Source of the DNA: Crocinitomicaceae bacterium
GTDB taxonomy: Bacteria; Bacteroidota; Bacteroidia; Flavobacteriales_D; Crocinitomicaceae
DNA length: 64,000 nt
Direction: 5' to 3'
Assembly: GCA_023957475.1 (NCBI GenBank)
Contig: JAMLHA010000004.1
Span: 1-64,000 of the forward strand
Below the pieces are notes generated by a model. The model saw only the letters and a program-made list of their open reading frames with translations. It ran no database searches and was not told the DNA's origin. Of the stretch, positions 32,098 through 45,786 are shown in pieces. How positions within the stretch are numbered: position 1 is the stretch's first letter; every line of letters begins with the position of its first letter. Position numbers and translations under genes: made by a program.

Positions 32098-33498
32098 TCA
32101 ATAATAAAATCCCAACACCGTTTGTTTAAACAATAACTGATATTTGGCTTGTATCAATTCTGATTTTGCTTGAAATAATTTGTTTTTAACTTCAATCAAC
32201 TGCGTATAAGTCGCATTTCCTGTTTCGTAGCGAACTTGGAAATTCTCACAATTCAATAACGCAGATGAATAGACTTTTTCTAACGCTTCTATTTGAGAAC
32301 TAGTATTTAGAATATCCATTGAAAGTTGCTCAATCTTTTGTTTCAATTGATTGTATTCATTTTGCTTGTTGATAAACAGCGATTGTAGTTCTAATTCTTT
32401 TATTTTTAGCTGATTTCGTGTAGCATTTTTGTTGAAAATCGGAATACTCAACGAAAAAGAAAGAGATTGATACAAGTTGTTGTTAAACTGTTCCCCAAAA
32501 GGTCTGGGAACATAGTCTCCATTAGCATTAAGCATCTTATTATTTCCCGAATATCCACTACCAACAGAACCACTCACTAAAATAGACGGATAATATCGCC
32601 CTTTCAATGATTTTATCAAATACATTTGTTTTTGAATACCTAATTCTATTTTAACAATTTCTGGTAGTGTGTATATAGCTGCATCAGCTAAAATCGTTTG
32701 CACTAATGAATCCTCATCCCGATAGCTGCTATCGAGAGAAGTGGGAATATCAAAACTATCACTAATTGAAATATTTAATAGTTGTTGGAGCAACAACTTA
32801 GAATAGCGCAAATCATTTTCTGCTTTTGTAATAGTGTAATTATCCAACTGCTTTTGAGCATCTATTTCCGATAATTCAAATTGTGTTGCTTGACGAGCCG
32901 AAACAAGTTCATGTATTCGTTTATATTGTAGTTCTGTTTTCAGAAAATTATCTTTTGCTAATTCAACAACTTCTTTATTGAGCAATACTTGTAAAAAAGT
33001 AGCTGATACATCAATTTTTATGTTACGCTGAAAAATTTCCTGCTCCAAAATACTTTCTTGTACGGCAATATTATTGACTTTTATAGAATAGAAATTTTGA
33101 AGTCCCGAAAACAATACGACACTACTACTCAAATAAAAGTTGTCAAACATAACTCTATTTGTCGCAAATTGATTAGTAAACAAGTCAATCGTCTGCCCCC
33201 AATTATAACCGTGTGTTACACCTGCATTTAACGAGGGAAGTAAATTTTGTTTTGAATTTTTGAGATTGACAGAAGCGATTTGAGAATTAATCAACCCCGA
33301 TTTTAATTTCAGATTATTTTGCAAAGCAGTATCAATGCAATTATCCAATGTCCAAACCTGCGCACAAGCGCAGTTTAAATTGACAATTAGCAAATGTACA
33401 ATTGACAATATCAAAATTGATACCCTAAATTTTGAATTGACAATGAGATAATTTACAATTGACAACGTCAGTATTTGATATTTCATTTTGTTAATCAT
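32098..33498 (-). CDS. TolC-family outer membrane channel protein
   Basis: An outer membrane efflux protein with two homologous TolC halves (VWTLDNCIDTALQNNLKLKSG at the start; SLSIPIFNKNATRNQLKIKELELQ in the second half) and long helical stretches. It is the outer channel of the type 1 exporter for the RiPP locus, with the HlyD adaptor and C39 ABC protein encoded upstream. The first 45 residues include an unusually long hydrophobic leader made of repeated Leu-Ser-Ile-Val-Asn-like units. These are encoded by the same AATTGACAAT repeats found in the flanking intergenic DNA. The signal peptide then ends at Ala-Cys-Ala-Gln. The exact start (33498, or the Met at residue 5) is uncertain. Confidence 0.88.
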   Translation of the reverse strand: MINKMKYQILTLSIVNYLIVNSKFRVSILILSIVHLLIVNLNCACAQVWTLDNCIDTALQNNLKLKSGLINSQIASVNLKNSKQNLLPSLNAGVTHGYNWGQTIDLFTNQFATNRVMFDNFYLSSSVVLFSGLQNFYSIKVNNIAVQESILEQEIFQRNIKIDVSATFLQVLLNKEVVELAKDNFLKTELQYKRIHELVSARQATQFELSEIDAQKQLDNYTITKAENDLRYSKLLLQQLLNISISDSFDIPTSLDSSYRDEDSLVQTILADAAIYTLPEIVKIELGIQKQMYLIKSLKGRYYPSILVSGSVGSGYSGNNKMLNANGDYVPRPFGEQFNNNLYQSLSFSLSIPIFNKNATRNQLKIKELELQSLFINKQNEYNQLKQKIEQLSMDILNTSSQIEALEKVYSSALLNCENFQVRYETGNATYTQLIEVKNKLFQAKSELIQAKYQLLFKQTVLGFYY

Positions 33499-33540
33499 CT
33501 AATTGTACATTTGTTCATTGTTCATTGTCAATTGTTATCA
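33363..33540. repeat. Dispersed AATTGACAAT-type repeats across tolC start
   Basis: Several degenerate copies of AATTGACAAT and its complement lie from about 33380 to 33540, spanning the first codons of the TolC gene and the gap to hlyD. The core CAATTG is palindromic. Related copies recur at 34794-34890, 34990-35010, 35426-35500 and 44197-44300. Confidence 0.7.
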
Positions 33541-34943
33541 AAAATTTTTCTGAATTGATTAAATATTCGGTCTGTTATCCGCAAATCTTCCGTTATGATT
33601 TCAGCTGTTCCGCCCATTTCAGGTGTATAATTTAATTCCTTGTTATAAGTAGTTTTTAATCCGTTTGTCAATGCTACTTTAACCAAATAATTTTCCTCAT
33701 TGGCAATGAGCGAAACTGATTGTACTTTTCCAACTAATTGACCGTATTCGTGAGCAGGAAAATTATCTATTTTCAACATTACTTTTTGCCCTGTTTTTAC
33801 TTTTCCGTAACCGCTTTTTGGAATTTTCAGTTGAGCAATATACGACTGATTGGAGGGTATGATTGCAAACAATGCTTTTCCCGATTCAATAAATTGATTT
33901 TCATTGATTGTCTGTAAATAGCTTAATTTTCCGTTAATCGGCGCACTCAATTGATAGGTGCGTGTCCATGTTTGCAAACTGTTTTCAATGGTTGAAAGCT
34001 GGGTTTCTATTTCAAGAAGCAATACCTTTCGCTTTTGCTCAAAAGTGAATTTCAAATCATTGAGTTGTTTTTCTAAATCGGTAATTGAAATAGCTGTTGA
34101 AATCTTACTTTTCTCTAAATTGTTGATTTCATTGATTGCTGTTTCGTAAGTGCGCTCTCGGTCAAAAAATTCTGCCTGTGAAATAATTCCTTTTTCGTAC
34201 AATGCTTTATCCGATTTAAACTTGTTTTCTGCATTATTTAGTAGTTTATGGCTACTGCTTAATTGTTTTGTAATGAATTGCTGCAATGCTTTTTGGTTGC
34301 TGATTTGTTTGGAAATATTGGCAATATTAAACGCTGTATTATCTTCATTGATAAGGTATTGATAATTTTTTAAAGCGGTCGTTAATGCTGAAACATTACT
34401 TTGCACATCTCCAAAGACCAATTCAGTTGGTACGATTTTTAGTTTTTCCAGTGAATTATTAGTGTATGCTTGTCTAATTTTAACAAGTTCAAGTGTTAAA
34501 AATCCCCTTGCACTATCTGAAAGCGTGCTTTTAATGGTTGCAATAACCTGTCCTTGTTTAATCGCTGTATTTTCTTTGTTTTTTAGAAACTCTATTTCTC
34601 CTGCTGATTTGGTGACTAATTTTATCGGTGGTTCTGCTGTTGTCAGTGTAGTAGTTCCCTTAATAACATCGGGATATTTAATCAACCACGCCAAAAACAG
34701 AAACAAGGCAATGATTCCGAAAATAAGCGAAATACCCCAACGAATCATCCAGTTGGGAACATGCGACAAGATTTCTTGTACCTCATCGGAACGAATTGAC
34801 AATGGTTCAATTGACAATGGTTCAATTGACAATGGTTCAATTGACAATGGTTCAATTGACAATGTACAATTATTAGTTGACAATGACTCAATGGGCAATT
34901 GACAATTTTCGGGGGAATCGCTATTTTGTATTTCTTTTTCCAT
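33528..34943 (-). CDS. HlyD-family membrane fusion protein of the RiPP exporter
   Basis: A periplasmic adaptor with one N-terminal membrane helix (about residues 72-92), biotinyl-lipoyl-like strands (PIKLVTKSAGEIEFLKNKENTAIKQGQ), a long alpha-hairpin (about 165-310) and a C-terminal beta-barrel (SAPINGKLSYLQ, then IAQLKIPKSGYGKVKTGQKVMLKI). It bridges the C39 ABC transporter and the TolC channel. The cytoplasmic N-terminus (about residues 20-55) contains a pentapeptide repeat Ser-Ile-Glu-Pro-Leu, four to five copies, encoded by a 15-bp tandem repeat. This segment is absent from ordinary HlyD proteins and looks like coding of a spreading intergenic repeat. Confidence 0.88.
   Translation of the reverse strand: MEKEIQNSDSPENCQLPIESLSTNNCTLSIEPLSIEPLSIEPLSIEPLSIRSDEVQEILSHVPNWMIRWGISLIFGIIALFLFLAWLIKYPDVIKGTTTLTTAEPPIKLVTKSAGEIEFLKNKENTAIKQGQVIATIKSTLSDSARGFLTLELVKIRQAYTNNSLEKLKIVPTELVFGDVQSNVSALTTALKNYQYLINEDNTAFNIANISKQISNQKALQQFITKQLSSSHKLLNNAENKFKSDKALYEKGIISQAEFFDRERTYETAINEINNLEKSKISTAISITDLEKQLNDLKFTFEQKRKVLLLEIETQLSTIENSLQTWTRTYQLSAPINGKLSYLQTINENQFIESGKALFAIIPSNQSYIAQLKIPKSGYGKVKTGQKVMLKIDNFPAHEYGQLVGKVQSVSLIANEENYLVKVALTNGLKTTYNKELNYTPEMGGTAEIITEDLRITDRIFNQFRKIFDNN
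34794..34864. repeat. 15-bp tandem repeat inside the hlyD coding region
   Basis: The unit AATTGACAATGGTTC is repeated four times exactly (34794-34853) and a partial fifth copy follows. Because 15 is a multiple of three, changes in copy number would lengthen or shorten the protein by five residues (SIEPL) without changing frame. Confidence 0.9.
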
Positions 34944-35003
34944 TTTTTTTATAATTGATAATTAACTTCGTTGAGGGCTTTGCCGTTGTACATTGATTAA
35001 TTG

Positions 35004-35369
35004 TCAATTGCTATGTGCTATATTTCGCTTTGTTGTATTAATTATAGAAATCAACATTCTTATTAATTCCTTTACTCTTGAGAATAAATCTTCAAAATCA
35101 TCTACTTGAATCAATTTTGTTTCATGCATCAGTTCAATCCAATATTCGGTCTCATTTGCTTCTTTTAGAGAAATTGCTAATTTGTGGATGAAATCTTTTT
35201 TACTTTCAGCTTGTTCTGCCTCTCGAATTAACGCCCCCACAGCTGTTCCACTTCTTAAAAATTGTTTAGACAATACAAATTCTCTCATTTCCCCATTTAG
35301 TTTTTTATTCATTTCTACAACCAAAACCGCAAACTCAAAACTCTTTCTTTTAATAACATTTTCTTTCAT
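35004..35369 (-). CDS. Four-helix bundle protein (S23/IVS family)
   Basis: A small helical protein of the four helix bundle family first seen in 23S rRNA intervening sequences (KSFEFAVLVVEMNKKL, KQFLRSGTAVGALIREAEQAESKKDFIHKLAISLKEANETEYWIELM). I use the MKENVIKRKSFEF start (35369); an earlier Met at 35429 would add 20 untypical residues. The family occurs widely in Bacteroidota, often inserted in unrelated operons, and its function is unknown. Here it lies between the hlyD and C39 ABC genes of the exporter, flanked on both sides by AATTGACAAT repeats, as if inserted as a small cassette. Confidence 0.88.
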   Translation of the reverse strand: MKENVIKRKSFEFAVLVVEMNKKLNGEMREFVLSKQFLRSGTAVGALIREAEQAESKKDFIHKLAISLKEANETEYWIELMHETKLIQVDDFEDLFSRVKELIRMLISIINTTKRNIAHSN

Positions 35370-35425
35370 TATACATCGTTTTCCAATCAAGTTAATCAAA
35401 AACAACATATCTAGCAAATAAATTG

Positions 35426-35500
35426 ACAATTATTCAATTGAAAATGTACAATTACCCAATTGTCAATTGTTTCATTGTACATTGTACATTGTCAACTCCC
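35426..35500. repeat. Inverted AATTGACAAT/ATTGTCAATT repeats
   Basis: Between the four-helix-bundle gene and the C39 ABC gene, copies of TTGACAATT lie in one direction (35433-35455) and ATTGTCAATTG, ATTGTACATTGTACATTGTCAA in the other (35458-35495). They could fold into a hairpin in the transcript. Confidence 0.6.
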
Positions 35501-37684
35501 CAATTCCAACTGATTTTTCACCAAATCAAAATATTTCCCCCTCAATTTTACCAATTCTTCGTGTGTTCCTCTTTCTACAATACATCCATGTTCCAACACA
35601 ACAATTTGGTCTGCATTTTTAACAGTGCTTAAACGGTGTGCAATAACAACGGCTGTACGTCCTTTAAAGAACGTGTTTAGATTCTCCATAATCACACGTT
35701 CATTATTGGCATCCAATGCGCTTGTAGCTTCATCAAAGAAGATGAATTTTGGATTTTTGTAAACCGCACGGGCAATTAACAGGCGTTGTTTCTGCCCTGT
35801 ACTCATTCCTATACCCTCCATCCCTATTTTAGTATTATAGCCCAAAGGCAATTGCTCTATAAAACTTCCAATATTGGCTATTTCAACTGCCTTTTTTAAT
35901 CGTTCTTTGTCGATAATATCCTCCCCGACAGCAATGTTATTAGCAATCGTATCGTTAAAAATATACCCCTCCTGCATTACAGCACCACTATTTGCTCTCC
36001 AGGTATGTTGACTGATTGTAGTTAAATTTGTATTTCCTATTTTGATTTCTCCTGTTCCTGGTTCGTAGAATTTCAACAGCATTTTCATTAGAGTTGTTTT
36101 TCCGCTTCCACTCGTTCCGACGATTGCCGTTATTTTGTTGGCAGGAATGGTTAAATCCAACCCCTTAATCACTTCTTCGTGGCTTCCTGTATAACGGAAA
36201 TGCACATTGGATAGTGTAAAATCTTCATTTTCGGGAATATCATGTACTTTTTCATCTTCTGTCTGTTCTTCATCTTCACGATTGTGAATTTCAGAAAGGC
36301 GTTCTAACGCAATTTTTGCATCCTGTACCGAGTAAACAAAACCGATTAACTGTTGAATAGGGCTGTTGAGCTGACCAATAATATATGAAATTGCCATCAT
36401 CATACCAAGTGTTATTTCTCCGTCAATAACCAGTTTAGCAGAAAACACGGTAATAAAGATATTTTTGAGCTCGTTGATAAAACCTGAACCAATGGTTTGC
36501 GTTTGCTCTAAAACCAATCCTTTCATAGAGATTTTAAACAAACGAGCCTGTAAAAATTCCCAACTCCATCGTTTTTGTTTTTCGGCATTATGTAGTTTTA
36601 TTTCCTGCATACCGTTAATGAGTTCTATTACTTTACTTTGTTCTTCACTCATTTGTGAAAAACGTTTGTAGTCTAAATCTTTTCTTCTTTTTAGAAAGAG
36701 AAGCACCCAAACAAAATATAACCCACTTCCAAGAAAGAAAATGCCAAATATTTTTAGGTCATACCATGCCAGTACACATCCGAAAATAATCAGATTAAAA
36801 AATGAGAACAGTGTATTAAGAGATGTTGATGTTAATAAAATTTCAATACGTCTGTGGTCACTAATTCGTTGCATGATGTCTCCCGTCATTTTACTGTCAA
36901 AATAGGAAATAGGCAGGTTCATTAATTTGATGAAAAAATCAGAAATCAGTGAAATATTGATGCGTGTGCTTAAATGCAGTAAAATCCACCCCCTAATAAT
37001 ATCAACGCTTGTTTTTCCGATGAATAAAAGTAATTGTGCAATGAGAATCAGATAAATAAAATTGATGTCTTGGTTCTGAATACCAATATCAACAATACTC
37101 TGTGTTAAAAAAGGAAAAATTAATTGAAGCAAAGAACCAACTAATAAGCCTAATGCCAGTTGAAAGATAAATTTCTTGTATCGGAATAAATATTGATACA
37201 GAAATGAAAAACCCCTTCTTTTTTCAATATCATCGTCTTCTGTTTGCTTTAATCGTGGAGTTGGTTCCAATAGCAATGCAATTCCTTCTTCTGTGGTTTC
37301 GTTTGCGGTTTTTCCTATCCAATTGTCTATAAAATCATGAATCGAGTATTTTAATAATCCATGTCCGGGATCAGCAACATAGACAATGCTATTTTTTATC
37401 TGATAGACAACAACAAAATGGTTGCTCTTCCAATGAACAATACACGGCAATGGGGCTTCTTCTTTGAATTTATTGAAGTCAACCTTTACTCCCAATGTGC
37501 GAAATCCTATTTTTTCTGCTGCATCTGAAACACTCTTTAAGTTACTACCTTGTCGGGTCGTTTCAGATAATTTTTGTAGTTTCTCTAATGAAATAGAACG
37601 CCCGTAATGTTTTGCTACCATACGTAAACAGGTAGGAGCGCAGCTCATTGCATCAGGTTGACGAAACAGAGGAAAAGATTTCAT
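35492..37684 (-). CDS. C39 peptidase-containing ABC exporter (PCAT)
   Basis: A 730-aa protein in the order C39 cysteine peptidase, ABC transmembrane domain, ATPase. The peptidase holds C15 (in RQPDAMSCAPTCLRM), H89 (SNHFVVVY) and D105 (VADPGHG). The membrane domain spans about residues 165-440. The ATPase has Walker A GTSGSGKTT, signature MSTGQKQR and Walker B FIFFDEATSALD. Such proteins cleave leader peptides after a double Gly and export the core. The precursors encoded upstream carry a Gly-Gly in the right place. It follows the SPASM maturase gene after two bases and works with HlyD and TolC. Confidence 0.93.
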   Translation of the reverse strand: MKSFPLFRQPDAMSCAPTCLRMVAKHYGRSISLEKLQKLSETTRQGSNLKSVSDAAEKIGFRTLGVKVDFNKFKEEAPLPCIVHWKSNHFVVVYQIKNSIVYVADPGHGLLKYSIHDFIDNWIGKTANETTEEGIALLLEPTPRLKQTEDDDIEKRRGFSFLYQYLFRYKKFIFQLALGLLVGSLLQLIFPFLTQSIVDIGIQNQDINFIYLILIAQLLLFIGKTSVDIIRGWILLHLSTRINISLISDFFIKLMNLPISYFDSKMTGDIMQRISDHRRIEILLTSTSLNTLFSFFNLIIFGCVLAWYDLKIFGIFFLGSGLYFVWVLLFLKRRKDLDYKRFSQMSEEQSKVIELINGMQEIKLHNAEKQKRWSWEFLQARLFKISMKGLVLEQTQTIGSGFINELKNIFITVFSAKLVIDGEITLGMMMAISYIIGQLNSPIQQLIGFVYSVQDAKIALERLSEIHNREDEEQTEDEKVHDIPENEDFTLSNVHFRYTGSHEEVIKGLDLTIPANKITAIVGTSGSGKTTLMKMLLKFYEPGTGEIKIGNTNLTTISQHTWRANSGAVMQEGYIFNDTIANNIAVGEDIIDKERLKKAVEIANIGSFIEQLPLGYNTKIGMEGIGMSTGQKQRLLIARAVYKNPKFIFFDEATSALDANNERVIMENLNTFFKGRTAVVIAHRLSTVKNADQIVVLEHGCIVERGTHEELVKLRGKYFDLVKNQLELGS

Positions 37685-37686
37685 TA

Positions 37687-38673
37687 CTATTTATATAATT
37701 CAGGTTTTTCATATCCTTCTTGCCCCTTCCATTTATTTGTGTATGGATTATATATACAAGAGGAAGGTCTTGAATGTTCATCATTTACAACCTTAACACG
37801 GCAATCCGTACAGATATACCGAAATTCACAGTCTTTACAAACGCTTATTGTATCTTTATTAATAAACCAATAATCTGTTTCCAATTGTTTTACATCAATG
37901 GTTTGTAAATCTTCAAACGAGCAAATAACATCTTTCATTGACGGACAATTCTTTACCTTTCCGTTAACATCAACTCCAATCTTTTTATATAGACAGGAGT
38001 TGTAGTTCATACTTTTGAAAATATGTTTTTTATTACTGGAAAAAAAAGACGGGTGGACTATTCCACAACATGAATCAGATTTAATTTCTTGACTTGTAAA
38101 AATGAACTTATTGTTTACCTTGTAAGTCGTTACGTCCTTATTAAAATTTGTGAATATGACGGAATTAATTTTAGGGTAAGAATTTATATTTAAAGAGACA
38201 TAATTAAATATTTCCTCATCAAAAGGTACAATAAAATCAATTGATTCTACAATAGTATTTTCTGTATATTTTAATATCTTTTCCAAGTCTTCCAAGCAGA
38301 CAGCATCAAAAAACCTAAATTGATAGAATTTAGTAAGAAAATCATCCAACTTAGATAATAATATAGGTATTGAATATATTGAGTCCTTATTTCTGTCAAT
38401 AATAACGGACTCTATTATTGCAGGAAAATCATACTCATATTTAAGTTTAGGAAACTGATTTTTAATACTATCGGGGATTTTTAAAATTATTTGGTTGTCA
38501 ATTAAGTGACTTAGTGTTTCCATTTCAAATTTTTCAATGGGAATATCTATATCAGGTAAATCAAAATCTATATGGTACCAATCTCCACGTTGAATGTCAA
38601 TCAGTAAATTTTTAGAATGTCCCTTAACAAAAAGACAGTTTGAAGATAAAATGTATGATTCTGTGTTATTCAT
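37687..38673 (-). CDS. gwsS: Grasp-with-spasm system SPASM-domain peptide maturase
   Basis: A 328-aa protein recognisable as the SPASM partner of the grasp-with-spasm RiPP family. The C-terminal part carries the auxiliary Fe-S ligands: SCLYKKIGVDVNGKVKNCPSM (about 228-248) and CKDCEFRYICTDCR (about 281-294), with a final Cys near 310. The N-terminal 200 residues have no CxxxCxxC radical-SAM motif. This is a feature of the family and not damage here. Its exact chemistry is not settled. The start overlaps the stop of the 79-aa gene (ATGA), and the C39 exporter follows directly. Confidence 0.85.
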   Translation of the reverse strand: MNNTESYILSSNCLFVKGHSKNLLIDIQRGDWYHIDFDLPDIDIPIEKFEMETLSHLIDNQIILKIPDSIKNQFPKLKYEYDFPAIIESVIIDRNKDSIYSIPILLSKLDDFLTKFYQFRFFDAVCLEDLEKILKYTENTIVESIDFIVPFDEEIFNYVSLNINSYPKINSVIFTNFNKDVTTYKVNNKFIFTSQEIKSDSCCGIVHPSFFSSNKKHIFKSMNYNSCLYKKIGVDVNGKVKNCPSMKDVICSFEDLQTIDVKQLETDYWFINKDTISVCKDCEFRYICTDCRVKVVNDEHSRPSSCIYNPYTNKWKGQEGYEKPELYK

Positions 38674-38909
38674 AGAACTTCGTCGGGATTAATAATAAGA
38701 CTTAATTGAGAATAGGAAACTAATCTGATATGCCCCTCATAGTTAATTTTATCAATTTTAATTGACGAATTGAAATGTAAATTTTGTTGAATGTCTTCTT
38801 CCTGAGTTTTCTTTATCGTTTTTTCTTCTAAAAAATAAATATCCATTGGGAAGAATGATTTATCTATTCCAGTAGATTCTGATAAAAAATCAATATGGTT
38901 CTTTTTCAT
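38670..38909 (-). CDS. Unknown 79-aa protein between the two maturase genes
   Basis: I do not recognise this protein. It begins MKKNHIDFLSESTGIDKSFF, superficially like the precursor leaders (MKKN), but it has no Gly-Gly site and no Cys. It is linked to both neighbours by ATGA overlaps (ATP-grasp gene upstream, SPASM gene downstream), so it should be made in equal amounts with them. Size and position suggest a small accessory partner, for example a leader-binding protein, but that is only an inference. Confidence 0.7.
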   Translation of the reverse strand: MKKNHIDFLSESTGIDKSFFPMDIYFLEEKTIKKTQEEDIQQNLHFNSSIKIDKINYEGHIRLVSYSQLSLIINPDEVL

Positions 38910-39922
38910 AATACCAAATGTTGGGCAACAATTTTTTGCAGGTAAAAATTACAATTTTCCGAATTAGCAATATATTGACCGGAGGGGTTTACCTCCAAAA
39001 ATATATATTCATTATCAACAGAATAAATGATATCAAGAGAACCCGTAACCAAGTTCAATTTATGCATTAAACCGTCTATTTTTTGTTCAATGTCTTCAGG
39101 TAGTGTAAACGGAACTATCCGAGTTGGATTCTCTCTGTCATAATGACGATAGTCTGTTTGAGTTTCCTTTTTGTTTTGTGTAAACATTGCACAGGAATAC
39201 ATACTCCCATGAATGTAAAATGTGCGAATTTCAAATAACTTCCCTATTTTCTCTTGAAATAGTGTTAAGGGAAATTCATCTGGAAAAGTCAAAATATCTT
39301 CTTTAGTAATTTCGTGTGTGTATTGGGAATATACTGTTTCATTGTTTTGGTTATAGAATGACAAATTCAGACCTAAACTTTTAGTTATAATTTGACTACA
39401 TTTTTTATTAAATGACATTAACCCTGCTCTTTTTGTTGTGAGGATTGTATTAGGAATTTTTAATCCAATTAAAAAGGCAGTATTTAAAACTGTAATTTTA
39501 TTAATAAAAGCTCCATTATCATTTCCGATGAGATTTAACGACTTCAAACTATCTAAACAATGGTTTTTTATATTATGTTCGTAAGCCATGAAATAATTTG
39601 CTAAACGTGAATAGGTATTAACCATTGATTCTGTGTTACTTCTCAAACCTGTATAGTTCGTATAAGTCAATGCCCCACTTCTAAAATAAATACCTTGAAT
39701 ATCATCCAAATGATATTCGTATTCCTCATTATTGAATTGAATATGTTTATTTATTTCTCCATTAGTAAAACTTATTTCCGTGAACCTGAAAGTTTCTTTA
39801 TCCGCATTTATATGCCGGAATAATTTATTTCCAGTTAAACAATAATAATATGCCCAATCCGATACTAATTTGGCAGTATAATCACCGCTTTTTGACACAA
39901 TTAAAACGATCCTTTTGCTCAT
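38906..39922 (-). CDS. gwsG: Grasp-with-spasm system ATP-grasp peptide maturase
   Basis: A 338-aa ATP-grasp enzyme similar to the microviridin/pheganomycin-type peptide maturases. Such enzymes use ATP to form ester or amide bonds between side chains of a precursor. The N-terminus IVLIVSKSGDYTAKLVSDW is the family start. The C-terminal metal- and ATP-binding strand is GSLDIIYSVDNEYIFLEVNPSGQY (Glu and Asn in EVNPSGQY, about residues 313-320). It overlaps the end of the accessory gene by 41 bases, and its stop overlaps the 79-aa gene start. The ATG at 39922 is the best start I see. Confidence 0.87.
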   Translation of the reverse strand: MSKRIVLIVSKSGDYTAKLVSDWAYYYCLTGNKLFRHINADKETFRFTEISFTNGEINKHIQFNNEEYEYHLDDIQGIYFRSGALTYTNYTGLRSNTESMVNTYSRLANYFMAYEHNIKNHCLDSLKSLNLIGNDNGAFINKITVLNTAFLIGLKIPNTILTTKRAGLMSFNKKCSQIITKSLGLNLSFYNQNNETVYSQYTHEITKEDILTFPDEFPLTLFQEKIGKLFEIRTFYIHGSMYSCAMFTQNKKETQTDYRHYDRENPTRIVPFTLPEDIEQKIDGLMHKLNLVTGSLDIIYSVDNEYIFLEVNPSGQYIANSENCNFYLQKIVAQHLVL

Positions 39923-40834
39923 GATAATATTCGTAAAATGGTGTTGTTTTTGGTAAATCTCCTAAAGCCGGTGTCGTATCAAGATCATCTTTGAAATAAG
40001 GCGATAAGCCTATTTTATTACAGCGTTTAAAAAACTTTTCAGGAGAAGGAAGACTATCATTTGCCCCTCCCCACCTAAAATAATAAGACGGTTTACCTTT
40101 TTCTGAATACTCTCGTCTGTCAACTGCTATTGCATAATCAACAGGTAGCAAATGACCCTTCTTGAGCGATTTATACAAGAATTTTTTGTTTTCTTGAAAC
40201 CATTCAGGTGTGGAGTGAGTTAAAAAAATGTACGTTTGTCTGGGGACGACCCAATTTATTCCTCCTAAATAGCCTTGTTTTTGATAAACTGAATCTATAA
40301 AATTTCGATTGTCCTCATCAATCAGCTTCATGGTATCTAAAATAAGTTGTAAGATAAGTGAATCACTACCTTTATTGGATGCTTCAGTATATTTGTCCCT
40401 CACAATACGATCTTCTTGTAGTCTTCTTTCTATTTCCTGAAATAAATCAGAATTTATAAGTGGCATAATAGAATCATCAATGTATTTTTGATTAATTTCT
40501 CGAATGCTATCTTTCAATTGAGATGGCATACTTCTAAAATAGTGACGAGAATTTGTTCCCATTAACGTCGTTAAATTTGTTTCTAAGATTTTAATTGCTC
40601 GTTTTTCTTCCCCCTCTTCATTAGGCAAGCGGCATAAAACATTTCATCTATATCATACGGCTTATTTACTTTCTTAAATCCATTTTCAAAAAAGACTTGG
40701 GCATTTTTATAGTCTTGATTAAAAAAATAATAACGTGCTTCATTAATATTTTGATAGTATTTAATGTAATTGGTCTCCTTACAACTAATCAGTAGAAGAA
40801 TCAAAGCCACTGTTGATAAATATCTTTTGTCCAT
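39882..40834 (-). pseudogene. Secreted accessory protein, copy A (DUF6624-like), frameshifted
   Basis: Two frames, 40834-40583 and 40628-39882, together match the intact 312-aa paralogue at 42310-43248 over their whole length. The first encodes a lipoprotein signal peptide (lipobox Leu-Ile-Ser-Cys) and a TPR-like segment (NINEARYYFFNQDYKNAQVFFENG). The second has the C-terminal domain (LIDEDNRNFIDSVYQKQGY, FLTHSTPEWFQENKKFLYKSLKKGHLLPVDYAIAVDR by parts). The break is at a run of five C on the plus strand (40610-40614). Six would give one 317-aa protein. The C-terminal pattern resembles DUF6624. It lies between the precursor and maturase genes. Confidence 0.75.
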
Positions 40835-40854
40835 TTTAAAACTATTTGAAAAGA

Positions 40855-40889
40855 AGCCTTAAGCCGTTTTAGGAAAACGGCTTAAGGCT
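40855..40889 (-). terminator. Perfect hairpin after precursor A
   Basis: AGCCTTAAGCCGTTTT (40855-40870) and AAAACGGCTTAAGGCT (40874-40889) are perfect 16-bp arms with a 3-base loop. The hairpin lies six bases beyond the precursor A stop and before the accessory gene. It may act as a partial terminator or 3' stabiliser, so that precursor mRNA exceeds maturase mRNA. Confidence 0.8.
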
Positions 40890-40894
40890 AAAAA

Positions 40895-41167
40895 TTATCT
40901 GGTTCTTACAGGAGGAACAACAGGAGGTGTCCCAGGATTTGAAATACCTGACCCCGGTGTACAATCGTCCCATCGCTCATCCGTACAAGTAGTTGTTCCT
41001 GGATAAGTACAATCGATGTTTTTATCGGACTGCTCTGTTACCAATTCTTCATCATTATCAGCAGTTGCGCCCTATGTTCGGGTTCCTCGGTAGTAATATC
41101 CACCATGAATAACACCAAGATTTTCAATTTTGTTTTCAGAAAACCCTTCAAAAACATTTTTTTTCAT
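40895..41167 (-). pseudogene. Grasp-with-spasm precursor peptide, copy A, with internal TAG
   Basis: From the ATG at 41167 the frame reads MKKNVFEGFSENKIENLGV, then Ile-His-Gly-Gly-Tyr-Tyr-Tyr, and reaches TAG at codon 32 (41072-41074). Beyond it the same frame continues 58 codons to TAA, through Cys-, Asp- and Thr-rich sequence, to a Pro-rich end closing with Pro-Val-Arg-Thr-Arg. The intact copy B has the same leader start, the same Gly-Gly-Tyr-Tyr and the same Arg-Thr-Arg end, so both halves belong together. A CAG or TGG codon changed to TAG explains the break. The Gly-Gly is the expected C39 cleavage site. As sequenced, only eight core residues would be made. Confidence 0.75.
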
Positions 41168-41214
41168 AATAAAAAAATTAAGTTAATTGCCCTCTAAATT
41201 TCTTACCTTTACAC

Positions 41215-41325
41215 TGCATTTCGGGCATTCTACAATGCAAGGTTGCGCAGCAAAACAGTTCGGTAAAAATGCTTTTTTGCGTCTTTTAGAGGAAGTGTTA
41301 CCGCACTTCCTTTATTTTTAGTGTT
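41215..41325 (+). ncRNA. Candidate short transcript with terminator and 28-codon ORF
   Basis: GGAAGTG (41291-41297) and CACTTCC (41304-41310) form a stem followed by TTTATTTTT on the plus strand: a rho-independent terminator with no annotated gene before it. A 28-codon ORF from the ATG at 41239 (MQGCAAKQFGKNAFL...) ends in the terminator. Either a small RNA or a very short peptide is possible. The 5' end is a guess. Confidence 0.35.
41291..41320 (+). terminator. Plus-strand terminator upstream of precursor A
   Basis: A 7-bp stem GGAAGTG/CACTTCC with a six-base loop and a T-rich tail on the plus strand only; the minus strand has no T-tract after the stem. Confidence 0.65.
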
Positions 41326-41444
41326 TTAATCCACAACTGAAAAATCAACTAAATTTGTTGCAATTTGATTAACAATCACAGTGATAAAAAATAAAATGTT
41401 TGTAATTTAACATTCAATATTTTTTCTAACCGTTTTGCTAAAAA

Positions 41445-41452
41445 CAAACATA
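41445..41452 (-). promoter_or_regulatory. Minus-strand -7 element, candidate precursor A promoter
   Basis: CAAACATA reads TATGTTTG on the minus strand (TAnnTTTG). Use of it would give precursor A an untranslated leader of roughly 270 bases that contains the 41291-41310 hairpin. Confidence 0.35.
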
Positions 41453-41554
41453 AGTATCTATACGAACTAAAAATTACGTAGAAATACGTGTTTTTTGAAA
41501 TTATGTCAACTAAAATTAATGAATTTTCATAATTTATGAATTTAAAATAGTGCT

Positions 41555-41642
41555 TACTCTAAATGGTTTTCGGCAACCCCAGCGAATAGCTGTTTTTCTC
41601 GATAAACAGCAATGGAAATCGACTAAAAAGTAGTTGCAACAT
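41555..41642. repeat. Noncoding block duplicated with the precursor module (copy A)
   Basis: This block aligns with 43610-43694. Shared parts are TACTCTAA, GGTTTTCGGCA, TTTTTCTCGATAAACAG and GCAACAT in the same order and similar spacing. CTGTTT...AAACAG inside it can form a small hairpin. It lies upstream of both divergent genes. Confidence 0.75.
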
Positions 41643-41694
41643 TAAATTAGTGTTTGCAAGATATATCAAAAAAAACGAAGAAATATCATTGTAT

Positions 41695-41713
41695 AAGTTG
41701 TATTTTACAACTT
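41695..41713. promoter_or_regulatory. Palindromic operator 1 upstream of XRE regulator A
   Basis: AAGTTGTA-TTT-TACAACTT is a perfect 8-bp inverted repeat around TTT. The core GTTGTATTTTACAAC recurs 87 bases downstream. Confidence 0.75.
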
Positions 41714-41763
41714 GTACTGCTTATTTTAATTGTATTGCACAACCAAATATATAAAAAACCCTT

Positions 41764-41771
41764 TATATTTG
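41764..41771 (+). promoter_or_regulatory. -7 element of XRE regulator A
   Basis: TATATTTG matches TAnnTTTG and lies between the two palindromes, 51 bases before the ATG at 41823. Confidence 0.5.
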
Positions 41772-41783
41772 CTAAAGTTGAGG

Positions 41784-41800
41784 GGTTGTATTTTACAACC
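41784..41800. promoter_or_regulatory. Palindromic operator 2 upstream of XRE regulator A
   Basis: GGTTGTA-TTT-TACAACC repeats the core of operator 1. It overlaps the start of the predicted XRE transcript, a place suited to autorepression. Confidence 0.75.
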
Positions 41801-41822
41801 TAAAAATCTATTTTTTGAAAGT

Positions 41823-42230
41823 ATGGAAAGTAGCATTAATGTATCACATGCCAAAAAATTACGTTTTTTAAGAAAACAATCTGACAAAAAACAAAGCGAA
41901 ATAGCCCACTATTTGGGGCTCAGTCAGCAGGCATACAGCAAGCTGGAAAATGGAGAAACAGGTTTTTCGGACGAAACCATTGAAAAAATTTCTCATTTCT
42001 TTGGCATTTCACCGGCAGAATTTGAACGGGTGCAGGAATCTGTTTATGTAGGTAATAACAGCTACAATTATGCCTCCAGCATCCATAATGTGGATGAACG
42101 CTTTCTAACATCTTACGAGACATTATTAGAGCAAAACCGGAAACTTTATGAAGATTTGATCCGGGAAAAGGATGAACGCATCAAATTATTGGAAGCGCTG
42201 TTATTGAAAGCGGACGGAGGAAAAGGTTAA
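41823..42230 (+). CDS. XRE-family helix-turn-helix regulator A
   Basis: A 135-aa regulator with an N-terminal HTH_3 domain (AKKLRFLRKQSDKKQSEIAHYLG, then LSQQAYSKLENGETGFSDETIEKIS) and a C-terminal helix (KLYEDLIREKDERIKLLEALL) suited to dimerisation. I use the ATG at 41823. The longer frame from 41730 would run through the promoter and operator 2. It is divergent from precursor A, and the two palindromes in between are its likely binding sites. A second, related regulator sits in the same position next to precursor B; both end in a similar KDERI/KDRVIE coiled helix. Confidence 0.87.
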   Translation: MESSINVSHAKKLRFLRKQSDKKQSEIAHYLGLSQQAYSKLENGETGFSDETIEKISHFFGISPAEFERVQESVYVGNNSYNYASSIHNVDERFLTSYETLLEQNRKLYEDLIREKDERIKLLEALLLKADGGKG

Positions 42231-42309
42231 TAAGCCTTTAACGTTGGTAGCCATTATCCTTTGTATGATTTCCTGTTGCTTTTGAATCAAAGTAAGCGAT
42301 AGGGGGAGA

Positions 42310-43248
42310 TCATTCGAACCTGCTACAATTAAAATCTTCTTTCTTTTCATTATAGTAGTCATAAAAAATTGTTTTTCTCAGAGTCTGTCCCCGTTTTAGA
42401 ATGGAATTGTTTGGATTATCAAAGTAAGGACTTAGTCCAATAAGGCATCTATTGATAAAAATTATTTCGGGACTTGTTGATACAACTGTATTAGAAGATA
42501 CATATAGATTGTACAAAGTTTGCGTTTTACAACTATTGTCATAAAAAGCACGGTCTAAAATTATCCCAAAGTGATACGGATCCATTCTACCTCCCTTTAT
42601 TTCTTTGAGGAATAACACATAGTTTCGAAATAACCAATCAGGCGGTATATGCAATATAATAGCTGTTACATCAGGATTTGGATAGTAGTAACCTCCTGGA
42701 AACCCATATTCCTTTATATATTCCAAAAACCTTTCTCTGTTTATGGAATCCTGAAAATCCATTTTTGTTTTCAACAAAGCACGTTGAATGCTATCCTCTT
42801 TAAGTATATTATTGAACTGTTTCCGATATAATTGATCGTACTTTATTAATGTATCGAAAAATATTTTGTTAGTCGGTATCATTATTGTGTCAGGAGCAAT
42901 TTCTAATAAAATTTTTTCTCTATTTTCCTCGCTCATTCCTCGATAATAAGTTGTGTCATTTTTAAAAAGATAGTGAACTCCCCAATTAAGCAAAACATCA
43001 ATTGATTTTTTTCTATTATTTGTTTCCCATAAGACACGGCTGTATAAATGAGCATCTTTTGGAAAAAATTTATATCCAAAGGTTTCAGCCTTTCCATAAT
43101 AAACTGCTGCTGAATCCCATTTCTCCTGATAGAACCAGTATTCCGCCTCGTTTAGATTATTCCGGAAAGGAATATAGTTTTGAGCATCACATGTATAAAC
43201 AATACTATTTATAACAAATAAAGCTATTGTATTATTTATGTTTATCAT
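42310..43248 (-). CDS. Secreted accessory protein, copy B (DUF6624-like)
   Basis: The intact 312-aa paralogue of the broken gene at 39882-40834. It has an N-terminal signal sequence ending near Asp-Ala-Gln, a TPR-like segment (NLNEAEYWFYQEKWDSAAVYYG), a linker, and a C-terminal domain (INRERFLEYIKEYGFPGG, LHIPPDWLFRNYVLFLKEI, HFGIILDRAFYD, then RCLIGLSPYFDNP). The order Gly-Phe-Pro-Gly, then a helical middle and Asp-Arg resembles DUF6624, a family of unknown function. It is encoded directly behind precursor B and is thus expected in the periplasm, perhaps handling or answering to the exported peptide. That role is inferred from position only. Confidence 0.75.
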   Translation of the reverse strand: MININNTIALFVINSIVYTCDAQNYIPFRNNLNEAEYWFYQEKWDSAAVYYGKAETFGYKFFPKDAHLYSRVLWETNNRKKSIDVLLNWGVHYLFKNDTTYYRGMSEENREKILLEIAPDTIMIPTNKIFFDTLIKYDQLYRKQFNNILKEDSIQRALLKTKMDFQDSINRERFLEYIKEYGFPGGYYYPNPDVTAIILHIPPDWLFRNYVLFLKEIKGGRMDPYHFGIILDRAFYDNSCKTQTLYNLYVSSNTVVSTSPEIIFINRCLIGLSPYFDNPNNSILKRGQTLRKTIFYDYYNEKKEDFNCSRFE

Positions 43249-43287
43249 AATTAAGATCTATAAATAGTCTAAACCTCTTTGACAAAT

Positions 43288-43319
43288 AAGCTGGAATGCA
43301 CCATAATGCACACCAGCTT
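43288..43319 (-). terminator. Hairpin after precursor B
   Basis: AAGCTGG and CCAGCTT (43288-43319) form the outer stem, with TGCA-containing inner pairs. Like the hairpin at 40855-40889 it lies just beyond a precursor stop codon and before the accessory gene. Confidence 0.7.
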
Positions 43320-43327
43320 TTATGTAT

Positions 43328-43585
43328 TTATCTTGTTCTAATGGGAGTCATAGGCACTCCCCATCCAGGATTAGGAGCTACAAGATCAAAAACCTCTATT
43401 CCATCGGAAAGATTCCATGATGCACCATTAATGTGACCATATTGATCTTTATCTCCTGGTTCTGTAATTGTTTCACAATCGTCACTACCATTAGTATATA
43501 CTGTATCTTGAGTATAATACCCTCCTGTTATTTTGTCTAATACTGTTTTTTTATCAGCAAAAGCCTCAATTGAATTTTTCTTCAT
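43328..43585 (-). CDS. Grasp-with-spasm precursor peptide, copy B
   Basis: An 85-aa RiPP precursor. I use the MKKNSIEAF start (43585) to match copy A; an in-frame Met lies two codons earlier. The leader (about 22 residues) ends in Ile-Thr-Gly-Gly, a C39 cleavage site, and the core starts Tyr-Tyr-Thr-Gln-Asp. The core is about 63 residues, rich in Thr, Asp, Glu and Gly, which are substrates for ATP-grasp cross-linking, with one Cys and a Pro-rich tail ending Ile-Arg-Thr-Arg. It is divergent from XRE regulator B and upstream of the accessory gene and the maturation operon. Confidence 0.85.
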   Translation of the reverse strand: MKKNSIEAFADKKTVLDKITGGYYTQDTVYTNGSDDCETITEPGDKDQYGHINGASWNLSDGIEVFDLVAPNPGWGVPMTPIRTR

Positions 43586-43609
43586 AATCATAATTTTTAG
43601 TTCAACGCC

Positions 43610-43694
43610 TACTCTAAGGTTTTCGGCATCCCCATAAAACTAACTATTTTTCTCGATAAACAGTTATAAAATCGGTTTTATTTTGCTGCAACAT
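43610..43694. repeat. Noncoding block duplicated with the precursor module (copy B)
   Basis: It aligns with 41555-41642 over about 85 bases, with the same ordered motifs (TACTCTAA, GGTTTTCGGCA, TTTTTCTCGATAAACAG, GCAACAT). It lies 25-110 bases upstream of the precursor B start. Confidence 0.75.
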
Positions 43695-43745
43695 ATTTTA
43701 ACACTCCAAATAAAACACATATTTTGCAATAAATATCGGTAAATA

Positions 43746-43798
43746 ATTACTAAATATTATAATATTTTACTAAATTATAAATATTTTTACTAGATTTG
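43746..43798 (+). promoter_or_regulatory. 20-bp-phased direct repeats and promoter of XRE regulator B
   Basis: TTACTAAAT (43747-43755), TTACTAAAT (43767-43775) and TTACTAGAT (43787-43795) recur every 20 bases, about two helical turns. The last overlaps the -7 element TAGATTTG (43791-43798). This looks like an operator array for the adjacent regulator. Confidence 0.65.
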
Positions 43799-43820
43799 TT
43801 TTTAAATATTTAAAATATAC

Positions 43821-44201
43821 ATGATGAATATAGGAGAAAACATTAAAAGCATCAGGGAACTAAAAGGATATTCACAAGAGGTTATGGCTTCGAATTTAGA
43901 TATAAGTCAAAAGACTTATTCTAATATTGAAAAGGCTGGAAATGATATATCTTACGAACGCATTCAAAAAATAGCAGATATTTTGGAGGTAAGTGTTACC
44001 AAGATTTTGCAACTGAATACTGAACACATTCTAAACAGCAACAATCAGTCTGGTGGGATAAGCCAATTAAATACTGCTGCAACTTATAATTATTTAAATG
44101 AGGCTCAAGCTAAATTATACGAAAGAATCATTGAAGAGAAGGATAAACTTTTGGAAGAAAAAGATAGGGTTATTGAGATTTTGAGAAGAATTGATAATTG
44201 A
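43821..44201 (+). CDS. XRE-family helix-turn-helix regulator B
   Basis: A 126-aa regulator with an N-terminal HTH domain (IGENIKSIRELKGYSQEVMA, then LDISQKTYSNIEKAGNDISYERIQKIADIL) and a C-terminal coiled helix (KLYERIIEEKDKLLEEKDRVIEILRRI). It is paralogous in layout to XRE regulator A and divergent from precursor B. Three phased repeats in its promoter are its likely sites and differ in sequence from the palindromes at copy A. Two Met codons open the frame; either could be used. Confidence 0.87.
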   Translation: MMNIGENIKSIRELKGYSQEVMASNLDISQKTYSNIEKAGNDISYERIQKIADILEVSVTKILQLNTEHILNSNNQSGGISQLNTAATYNYLNEAQAKLYERIIEEKDKLLEEKDRVIEILRRIDN

Positions 44202-44210
44202 CAATGGTCT

Positions 44211-44300
44211 AATTGACAGTTGGCAATGATTCAATTGACAGTTGACAGTGATCCAATTGACAGTTGGCAATGATTCAATTGACAGTGATATAATTAACAG
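44211..44300. repeat. 22-bp imperfect tandem repeat of the AATTGACA family
   Basis: Units AATTGACAGTTGGCAATGATTC (44211-44232), AATTGACAGTTGACAGTGATCC (44233-44254) and a copy of the first (44255-44276) are followed by shortened units to about 44300. They begin ten bases after the XRE B stop. Confidence 0.85.
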
Positions 44301-44320: not shown

Positions 44321-44488
44321 AAAAAATGTTTAAGATGACGGTTTTATGTAATAAAAAGTGTGTATGATTGATATTTTTACATTGTAAAAAATGTGATATA
44401 TTTTAATTATTATGTCGTAAAAAATGTAGTAAAATGATTTTTAATCTCAAAAAAAGTGTAAGTTTGTGTTAATTACTATAGAAAATGT
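44321..44488 (+). repeat. Six short repeats (AAAAARTGT) at 29-33 bp spacing
   Basis: Copies end at 44329, 44361, 44394, 44427, 44459 and 44488, so the spacing is 32, 33, 33, 32 and 29. Core sequences are AAAAAATGT, AAAAAGTGT, AAAAAATGT, AAAAAATGT, AAAAAGTGT and GAAAATGT. The last one contains the ATG of the ATPase gene. Too short for CRISPR repeats; more likely a binding array of about three helical turns per unit. Confidence 0.75.
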
Positions 44489-45786
44489 ATAGAGAAAAAA
44501 TCAGTGAATTAAAGGTGTGGAAGGATTCTAAAGGGCGTAAGCCATTGGTTGTTCTTGGCGCGAGGCAAACCGGAAAGACCTAGCTGTTACAAAAGTTTGG
44601 AAAAGAAGAACTCCAACAAACGGTTTACATCAACTTTCAACGTGCAACGGAATTAAAAGGACTTTTTTTGCCTGATTTAAATATTAAACGCCTTATCACT
44701 GCTTTTGAGATTTATAGTGGAATTAAAATTCAGCCAGAAAACACCTTAATCATCTTGGACGAAATTCAGATGGCTTCTAAAGGAATTACCTCTCTGAAAT
44801 ATTTTCATGAAGATGCTCCTGAATATTCCATTGTTGCAGCAGGCTCTCTTTTGGGATTGAATTTACACCCAGATGAATCTTTCCCCGTAGGAAAAGTGAG
44901 TTTTATGGAATTGCAACCGCTTTCGTTTTACGAATTTCTATTGGCATTGGGAGAAGATGGATTAGCACAGCTTTTAAAAGAAAAACTTTGGGAGCTTTTA
45001 CCTTCTTTTTCGGAGAAATTCAAAGAACATCTGCGTTATTATTTTTACATAGGAGGAATGCCTGAAGTAGTGGCACATTTTGCACACTCCCGAGATTGGA
45101 AAAAGGTTCGTTCAATCCAAAACGAGCTTCTTCAAACTTACAAAAACGATTTTTCCAAACATGCACCGACAGAAATTATTCCACGTATTCATCAAGTTTG
45201 GGAAAGCATTCCTGCACAGTTAGCGAAAGAGAATAAGAAGTTTATTTATGGTATTATTCGCGAAGGTGCAAGAGCCAAGGATTTTGAGTTAGCCATTCAA
45301 TGGCTGGTAGATTATGGATTATTGCATAAAATTAATGCTGTTTCAAAACCTGCATTACCTCTCAAAGCTTATCAACAAGCTACTATTTTTAAATTATACC
45401 ACAATGATCTTGGTCTTTTGGGAGCAATGGCAGAATTATCGGTACAAACCATTTTACACAGCGATGCCATATTCACTGAATTTAAAGGAGCATTGACCGA
45501 ACAATTTGTTTTTCAAGAATTAAAATTGGATACTTCACGATCTATCTTTTATTTTCCTTTTAAAAACAGTCAAAATGAAATCGATTTTATACTACAAAAT
45601 GAAGTTAATAGTGTTATTCCAATAGAAGTTAAAGCGGGAGAAAATTTACGAGCGAAAAGTTTTAAGCTCTTTTGTGAAAAATATCAGCCCAAAATGGCAA
45701 TCCGAACTTCTCTTTCAGGTTATCGTGAAGAATTATGGATGACAAATGTTCCACTGTATATTGTTCGAAGCTTTTTATCATCTTAA
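44485..45786 (+). pseudogene. AAA ATPase with DUF4143 domain, TAG in the P-loop region
   Basis: From the ATG at 44485 the frame encodes a 433-aa P-loop ATPase of the AAA_14/DUF4143 family. Walker A is GARQTGKT (residues 25-32), Walker B is LIILDEIQ (about 87-94), and the C-terminal DUF4143 part holds a PD-(D/E)xK-like set: Glu in TEQFVFQEL, Asp in NEIDFIL and PIEVKAG. Codon 33 (44581-44583), directly after the P-loop Thr, is TAG where relatives have a bulky residue or Trp. A TGG to TAG change would explain it. The rest of the frame is undamaged. A reinitiated product from about 44668 would lack ATP binding. Confidence 0.82.

Follow-up and report, generated by a model that had tools for sequence, protein, structure and literature searches.

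A single maturation and export machine appears to serve two old precursor/accessory modules in a locus of the grasp-with-spasm (graspetide) type from a Crocinitomicaceae bacterium, with the output of the precursors also set at the RNA level. We put the probability of this reading as a whole at roughly 70%. The locus lies at positions 32098-44201 of the window, by which we mean the whole 64,000-nucleotide stretch of contig JAMLHA010000004.1 that was analyzed; the host genome comprises 3.14 Mb in 33 contigs. Upstream of one set of maturation and export genes are two modules, A and B, each consisting of an XRE-family regulator gene on the plus strand and a precursor and an accessory gene on the minus strand. 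Comparison across relatives indicates that conserved structured elements lie immediately in front of the precursor genes, a short one in module A and a long two-helix one in module B. The locus joins a known kind of system; its RNA layer, for which we propose a function below, looks new.

The maturases define the system. The ATP-grasp peptide maturase (38906-39922, minus) scores 231.4 bits with TIGR04192, narrowly above the cut-off of 230, and the SPASM-domain maturase (37687-38673, minus) scores 185.1 bits with TIGR04193 (cut-off of 175). With both models above cut-off, the system is, by profile match, a grasp-with-spasm system for a ribosomally synthesized and posttranslationally modified peptide (RiPP), as an earlier note on this DNA had held. 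In searches of genome contigs for ATP-grasp genes, a single-sequence query gave no match and an alignment query succeeded. The genes, strands, and order also agree with that first description. The minus strand holds all of the maturation and export genes, namely, those for the ATP-grasp enzyme, a 79-amino-acid (aa) protein, the SPASM protein, a C39 ATP-binding cassette (ABC) exporter, an IVP/S23-type protein, HlyD, and TolC. The precursors end their leaders in a double glycine (ITGG in precA and IHGG in precB), and the exporter (35492-37684) has a C39 peptidase domain (PF03412, E = 2.6e-33) together with ABC domains. The NCBIfam precursor models TIGR04194, TIGR04149, and TIGR04139 did not match precA and matched the precursors of relatives weakly or not at all; models mostly fail to recognize branch 5 graspetide precursors, according to the passages of PMC8939145 used here.

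The same note had pointed out that the SPASM maturase lacks a radical-SAM motif. The motif is indeed absent, but this is no peculiarity of the locus: a CX3CX2C motif occurs in the first 200 residues of none of 114 TIGR04193-like SPASM proteins, the window's included, so in these sequences its absence is a family trait. A C-terminal CxxC..CxxC pattern is present in 84 of the 114. This family is termed radical SAM enzymes in PMC8939145, in the part of that paper used here, a label that is unsupported for the N-terminal part by the sequences checked. The 79-aa protein (38670-38909, minus), an open reading frame (ORF) that the earlier note had missed, sits directly before the SPASM protein in the position of the LPL family, and its role as the small protein before SPASM is taken from passages of PMC8939145. 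It has orthologs in L049 and L130-L133; the comparison, made by motif and position only, sets FPMD in the window against IPLD in the relatives.

Module A comprises XRE-A (43821-44201, plus; 126 aa, HTH_3 E = 3.7e-13), precursor A (43328-43591, minus; 87 aa, leader MKKNSIEAF...ITGG, C terminus PIRTR), and accessory A (42310-43248, minus; 312 aa). The precA leader resembles those of the precursors behind L132 and L229, and accA, assigned by homology, tree, and structure model, has a signal-like N-terminal helix and is all-alpha. Module B comprises XRE-B (41823-42230, plus; 135 aa), precursor B (40895-41167, minus; leader MKKNVFEGF...IHGG, recognized by homology with relatives), and accessory B (39882-40834, minus; lipoprotein-like N terminus LLISC, recognized by homology with accA). 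The order regulator, precursor, accessory thus occurs twice before a single maturase and export set, as had been described, and the paired members are homologous: accA and accB are 26% identical (E = 2e-27), precA and precB are 34% identical (E = 1e-5), and XRE-A and XRE-B are 30% identical (E = 1e-7).

In a tree of 53 accessory sequences, accB groups with the accessories of three other genomes, G230, G096, and G062 (100/95), and accA falls outside (96/93). Because accB is sister to the accessories of other genomes, modules A and B are, on this phylogeny, old and diverged paralogs; the duplication proposed in the earlier note stands as an old event and not as a recent one. Its expectation of conserved precursor ORFs is also borne out, since both leader types recur in relatives (MKKNVF(Q/E)GF for B and MKKNS(I/L)xxF for A). 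Module number varies among them: the G062 locus (L049) carries the precursor-accessory pair twice ahead of a single maturase set, in G096 two precursors stand in tandem with a divergent XRE gene, and G230 has one module. The tandem precursors of G096 (L133 2540-3264) have identical leaders; their G-tracts coding for Gly-Gly differ in length by one G, and this shifts one of the two frames. Module A might instead have been acquired separately by horizontal transfer, given that the searched genomes yielded no close relative of accA and that the accessories of A and B (26% identity) differ more than the accB orthologs do among themselves. However, the tree still places accA next to the accB group as its nearest sister (96/93), and the A and B leaders have MKKN(S/V)(I/F)xxF in common, so that separate acquisition seems the less probable history and we retain old duplication.

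The two modules share more than coding sequence. A 57-bp block upstream of both precursors (43607-43663 and 41552-41609) is 83% identical (E = 2e-8), and apart from this module A block no repeat of the DNA at 41167-41830 was found elsewhere in the genome. The two modules had been thought to be under different regulators. The XRE proteins do differ, at 30% identity, but fully separate control is doubtful: because of the shared block, part of the control is probably common to both modules. An imperfect palindrome within the block (CTGTTTATCGAGAAAAACAG), which precedes the short element in each module, is a candidate operator.

Contrary to the suggestion that copy A may be decaying, the copy disrupted in the assembly is B. 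The precA and accA frames are open and intact. precB is not one open frame: it reads MKKNVFEGFSENKIENLGVIHGGYYYRGTRT, then an in-frame TAG at 41072-41074, 8 residues past the Gly-Gly, and then 58 more residues, in which the pattern DEE..T...CTD.RWD.C agrees with cores in G230, G096, and G062. accB consists of two overlapping frames, with a frameshift at a G5 tract (40610-40614), and each half aligns with accA. Both changes had escaped the earlier note. Beside XRE-A, the gene at 44486-45786 (plus), which we take to encode an AAA/DUF4143-like ATPase, has an in-frame TAG within its Walker A motif (GARQTGKT*LLQKFG). We considered recoding of TAG and rejected it, as TAG serves as the stop codon in 5 of the 49 long genes of the window.

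We regard the precB, accB, and ATPase changes as probable recent lesions. That they are sequencing or assembly errors, with both modules functional, would fit the single-base nature of the accB change in its G5 tract and the frames past both module B lesions, which stay open and similar to relatives; the ATP-grasp gene of G062 (L049 8600-8990) is likewise frameshifted, at an A8 tract. Yet two of the three lesions are in-frame TAG codons, that is, substitutions and not length slips, TAG is an ordinary stop here, and all three fall inside 4 kb, with long genes nearby intact. Errors are therefore an unlikely explanation, and recent lesions are preferred.

The short element resembles the DUF805b RNA (RF02914). 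In module A it lies at 43603-43639 (minus), 11 nt before the precA ATG (26.9 bits, E = 2e-4), and has a stem with 3 of 4 pairs, a CCGAAAA loop, a GAGTAGG tail, and all pairs of a GCC/GGC pseudoknot. An orphan copy in module B (41548-41586, minus; 26.4 bits, E = 3e-4) has a GAGTAAG tail and one broken pseudoknot pair (GCC versus AGC); it falls within the 57-bp block and has no ORF behind it. An alignment of 32 copies supports a 4-pair stem and a 3-pair pseudoknot between loop (NCC) and tail (GGN), with 93% of cells paired and 49 double changes. Shuffled alignments gave about 16 double changes and slid controls at most 17, and none of 500 shuffles was as high. A model built from the 32 copies, R1, which scores the module A element at 36.4 bits, was used to search 583 kb of the family's grasp loci as well as 1.17 Mb from 79 named grasp loci across the Bacteroidota. 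The named loci gave 23 matches with E < 0.01, all on the maturase strand. Each is followed, 14 to 35 nt on, by the ATG of a small ORF, in most cases a double-glycine one; the taxa include Chryseobacterium, Aquimarina, Kordia, Tenacibaculum, and Mucilaginibacter. Nearly all matches in Crocinitomicaceae loci are 10 to 20 nt (once 31 nt) before such ORFs. RF02914 matches occur at about 0.5 per Mb genome-wide (summed, unselected) and about 19 per Mb in grasp loci, an enrichment of about 40-fold. Judged by these counts, the short element is not RiPP specific, yet it is enriched in grasp loci and precisely placed. Three more DUF805b-like copies in the host genome (L002, L003, and L006) precede genes for a lipoprotein, a repeat protein, and a TM2-like protein. 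The literature searched contained no paper dealing with DUF805b or with control of graspetides by RNA.

The structured element directly before precB (41165-41318) is longer, about 150 bp, and is common to many precursors of the family. Its hairpin loop pairs with a downstream TTACCG, there is a TGCCC/GGGCA pairing near the ATG, and a loop pairs further with the strand just before the ATG. Across 31 sequences, pairing in the seven-pair hairpin and the six-pair helix between loop and downstream strand reaches 95.8%, and there are 58 double changes. The precB leader had at one stage been taken for a degenerate short element lacking the TA of GAGTAGG; this was dropped once the long element with its UGCCC/GGGCA pairing was seen. 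A search of Rfam with the long element gave no match at E ≤ 0.5-10. The corresponding model, R2, scores the window's copy at 135 bits and has 24 strong matches in grasp loci. Among 299 genomes of the order it detects the long element in 12, and 11 of the 12 have a TIGR04192 gene. In 77 named loci the element was found in one contig only, from a Flavobacteriia metagenome-assembled genome, in three copies that each precede a double-glycine ORF. At L234 312-1657 and L241 1105-2416, in two Crocinitomicaceae genomes, the long element stands between XRE and lipoprotein genes with no graspetide genes nearby.

Several features point to transcription of the long element from the strand opposite precB. 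In both helices, A-C cells exceed G-U cells by 12:2 when read on the precursor strand. The A-run that precedes the hairpin on that strand is a T-run after the hairpin on the other, where a terminator is predicted at 41287-41314 (plus). Bacteroidota-type -33/-7 boxes (TTTG-N19-21-TAnnTTTG) were found on the opposite strand in 9 of 31 copies, compared to 0.3 expected at a strict threshold. On the precursor strand, promoters were not in excess upstream of the hairpin, nor were sense promoters within the long element. Because of the base-pair ratio, the terminator and its T-run, and the distribution of promoter boxes, these data suggest a divergent small RNA (sRNA), the 5' end of which would overlap the precursor mRNA. 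In the window, the putative sRNA gene would span 41204-41319 (plus), from a -7-like box (TACCTTTA, 41204-41211) to the terminator hairpin and T-run (41287-41319).

An mRNA leader acting on the precursor strand only, riboswitch-like with two pseudoknots and no opposite-strand sRNA, would account for the pairings near the ATG (UGCCC/GGGCA, ACCUACAU/AUGUAGGU, and GUCUC/GAGAC), which show compensated changes and are possible on the precursor strand only, and for the constant spacing between long element and ATG. The 12:2 ratio, the conserved T-run past the hairpin, and the -33/-7 boxes favor the opposite strand, and the precursor strand has no promoter excess upstream of the hairpin; a leader alone is accordingly a possibility that we consider doubtful. 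Since pairing next to the ATG requires precursor-strand RNA, both strands of the long element are probably used. We tentatively propose, at somewhat less than even odds, that the long element is a new class of RNA and a bidirectional unit of control: the precursor mRNA would start near a DUF805b-like pseudoknot, and a structured sRNA running the other way, with a terminator-hairpin loop that pairs with an upstream loop, would set the amount of precursor.

The accessory proteins have a hydrophobic N terminus, invariant H200 and D232, and a near-invariant R142. Since every module has an accessory of its own but the enzymes exist in one copy, each accessory may be paired with its own precursor as a peptide-specific partner, for example, an immunity protein or a receptor lipoprotein. 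An enzyme that processes or modifies the peptide is also conceivable, if somewhat less to be expected: the His and Asp are invariant, and passages of PMC8939145 suggest enzymatic activity, from conserved His and Arg, for cluster 23, which accA resembles when compared by description. Such an enzyme would sit uneasily with an accessory present once per module and strongly diverged between modules, when the modifying enzymes are single. Moreover, the structure model is mostly helical, and a fold search with it returned no match, enzyme-like or other. We therefore keep the peptide-specific partner.

ATP-grasp enzymes of this family ligate Thr/Ser to Asp/Glu side chains, and C39 domains cut after Gly-Gly; a graspetide is marked by omega-ester or omega-amide cross-links in its product. 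We envisage that the shared MKKN leader would be bound, that the ATP-grasp enzyme would most likely cross-link Thr/Ser and Asp/Glu side chains of the predicted cores, and that the C39 domain would cleave after Gly-Gly during export. The short element would act in the 5' untranslated region on precursor translation, and the long element would also encode the divergent structured sRNA overlapping the precursor mRNA leader at its 5' end, so that, besides the XRE regulators, control by RNA would set precursor output. An intrinsic terminator between precB and accB (40855-40889, minus; 16-pair stem and T-rich tail) may keep precursor transcripts in excess of enzyme transcripts, and the 57-bp block may place both modules under partly common control.

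A number of points weigh against this reading. Products, chemistry, and expression are predictions from sequence. Both RF02914 matches in the window (26.9 and 26.4 bits) are below the Rfam gathering score of 35.6 bits, and DUF805b also precedes many genes unrelated to RiPPs, often those for lipoproteins or secreted proteins. The long-element sequences are mutually related, so their counts do not represent independent events, and two copies (L234 and L241) precede a lipoprotein gene and not a precursor. The structure model of the accessory matched no fold, so its role as a peptide-specific partner is only a candidate one, and the lesions in module B could be assembly errors.

The remaining genes of the locus complete the export set: an HlyD-family adaptor (33528-34943, minus; TIGR01843, E = 2.9e-39) and a TolC-family outer-membrane protein (32098-33498, minus; PF02321, E = 5.4e-40). 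Between the ABC exporter and HlyD genes is an ORF for an IVP/S23-type four-helix protein (35004-35429, minus; PF05635), which the earlier note did not report. Mutually related minisatellites of 15 to 22 bp (AATTGACAGTTGACAATG) occur at 34794-34906, 35420-35469, and 44189-44286; one of them is inside the HlyD gene and gives the protein an N-terminal SIEPLSIEPLSIEPL repeat.

Little is known about what grasp-with-spasm systems make or how they are controlled, and the RNA elements would offer a first handle on how they are switched, making their regulation testable. The near-constant distance from element to ATG offers a way to find precursors missed by profiles and pointed to several of them, for example, in L062, L051, L053, and L060. 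RF02914, which takes its name from nothing more than a domain of unknown function, is thereby linked to a biological process. With one precursor and one accessory per module and one machine, the role of the accessory, immunity or receptor protein versus enzyme, becomes testable.

Cis-antisense RNAs control small-peptide mRNAs in systems of the CopA/CopT and type I toxin-antitoxin kind. The proposed divergent structured RNA, its 5' end overlapping the mRNA leader, is similar to these; unlike them, it is deduced here from sequence, and no toxin or replication protein is involved. The short element shares with DUF805b RNA the hairpin, the CCGAAAA loop, the GAGTAGG tail, and the short distance to the ATG, but the copies here are below the gathering threshold and precede RiPP precursors instead of DUF805 genes. 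The covarying pseudoknot is described here for the DUF805b-like element. As far as the passages of PMC8939145 used here describe them, branch 5 grasp-with-spasm loci likewise combine ATP-grasp and SPASM proteins, a small protein before SPASM, a cluster-23-like accessory, double-glycine precursors, and C39/HlyD export, and several precursors per locus are reported. They differ in that the precursors here match no precursor model and whole precursor/accessory modules are doubled, each with an XRE gene; structured elements before precursors are not described in those passages. Chryseoviridin loci, in the same passages, also have several precursors per ATP-grasp gene, with tandem duplication and loss of precursors, but the duplication discussed there is of precursor genes, whereas the locus studied here has second copies of the accessory and the regulator too.

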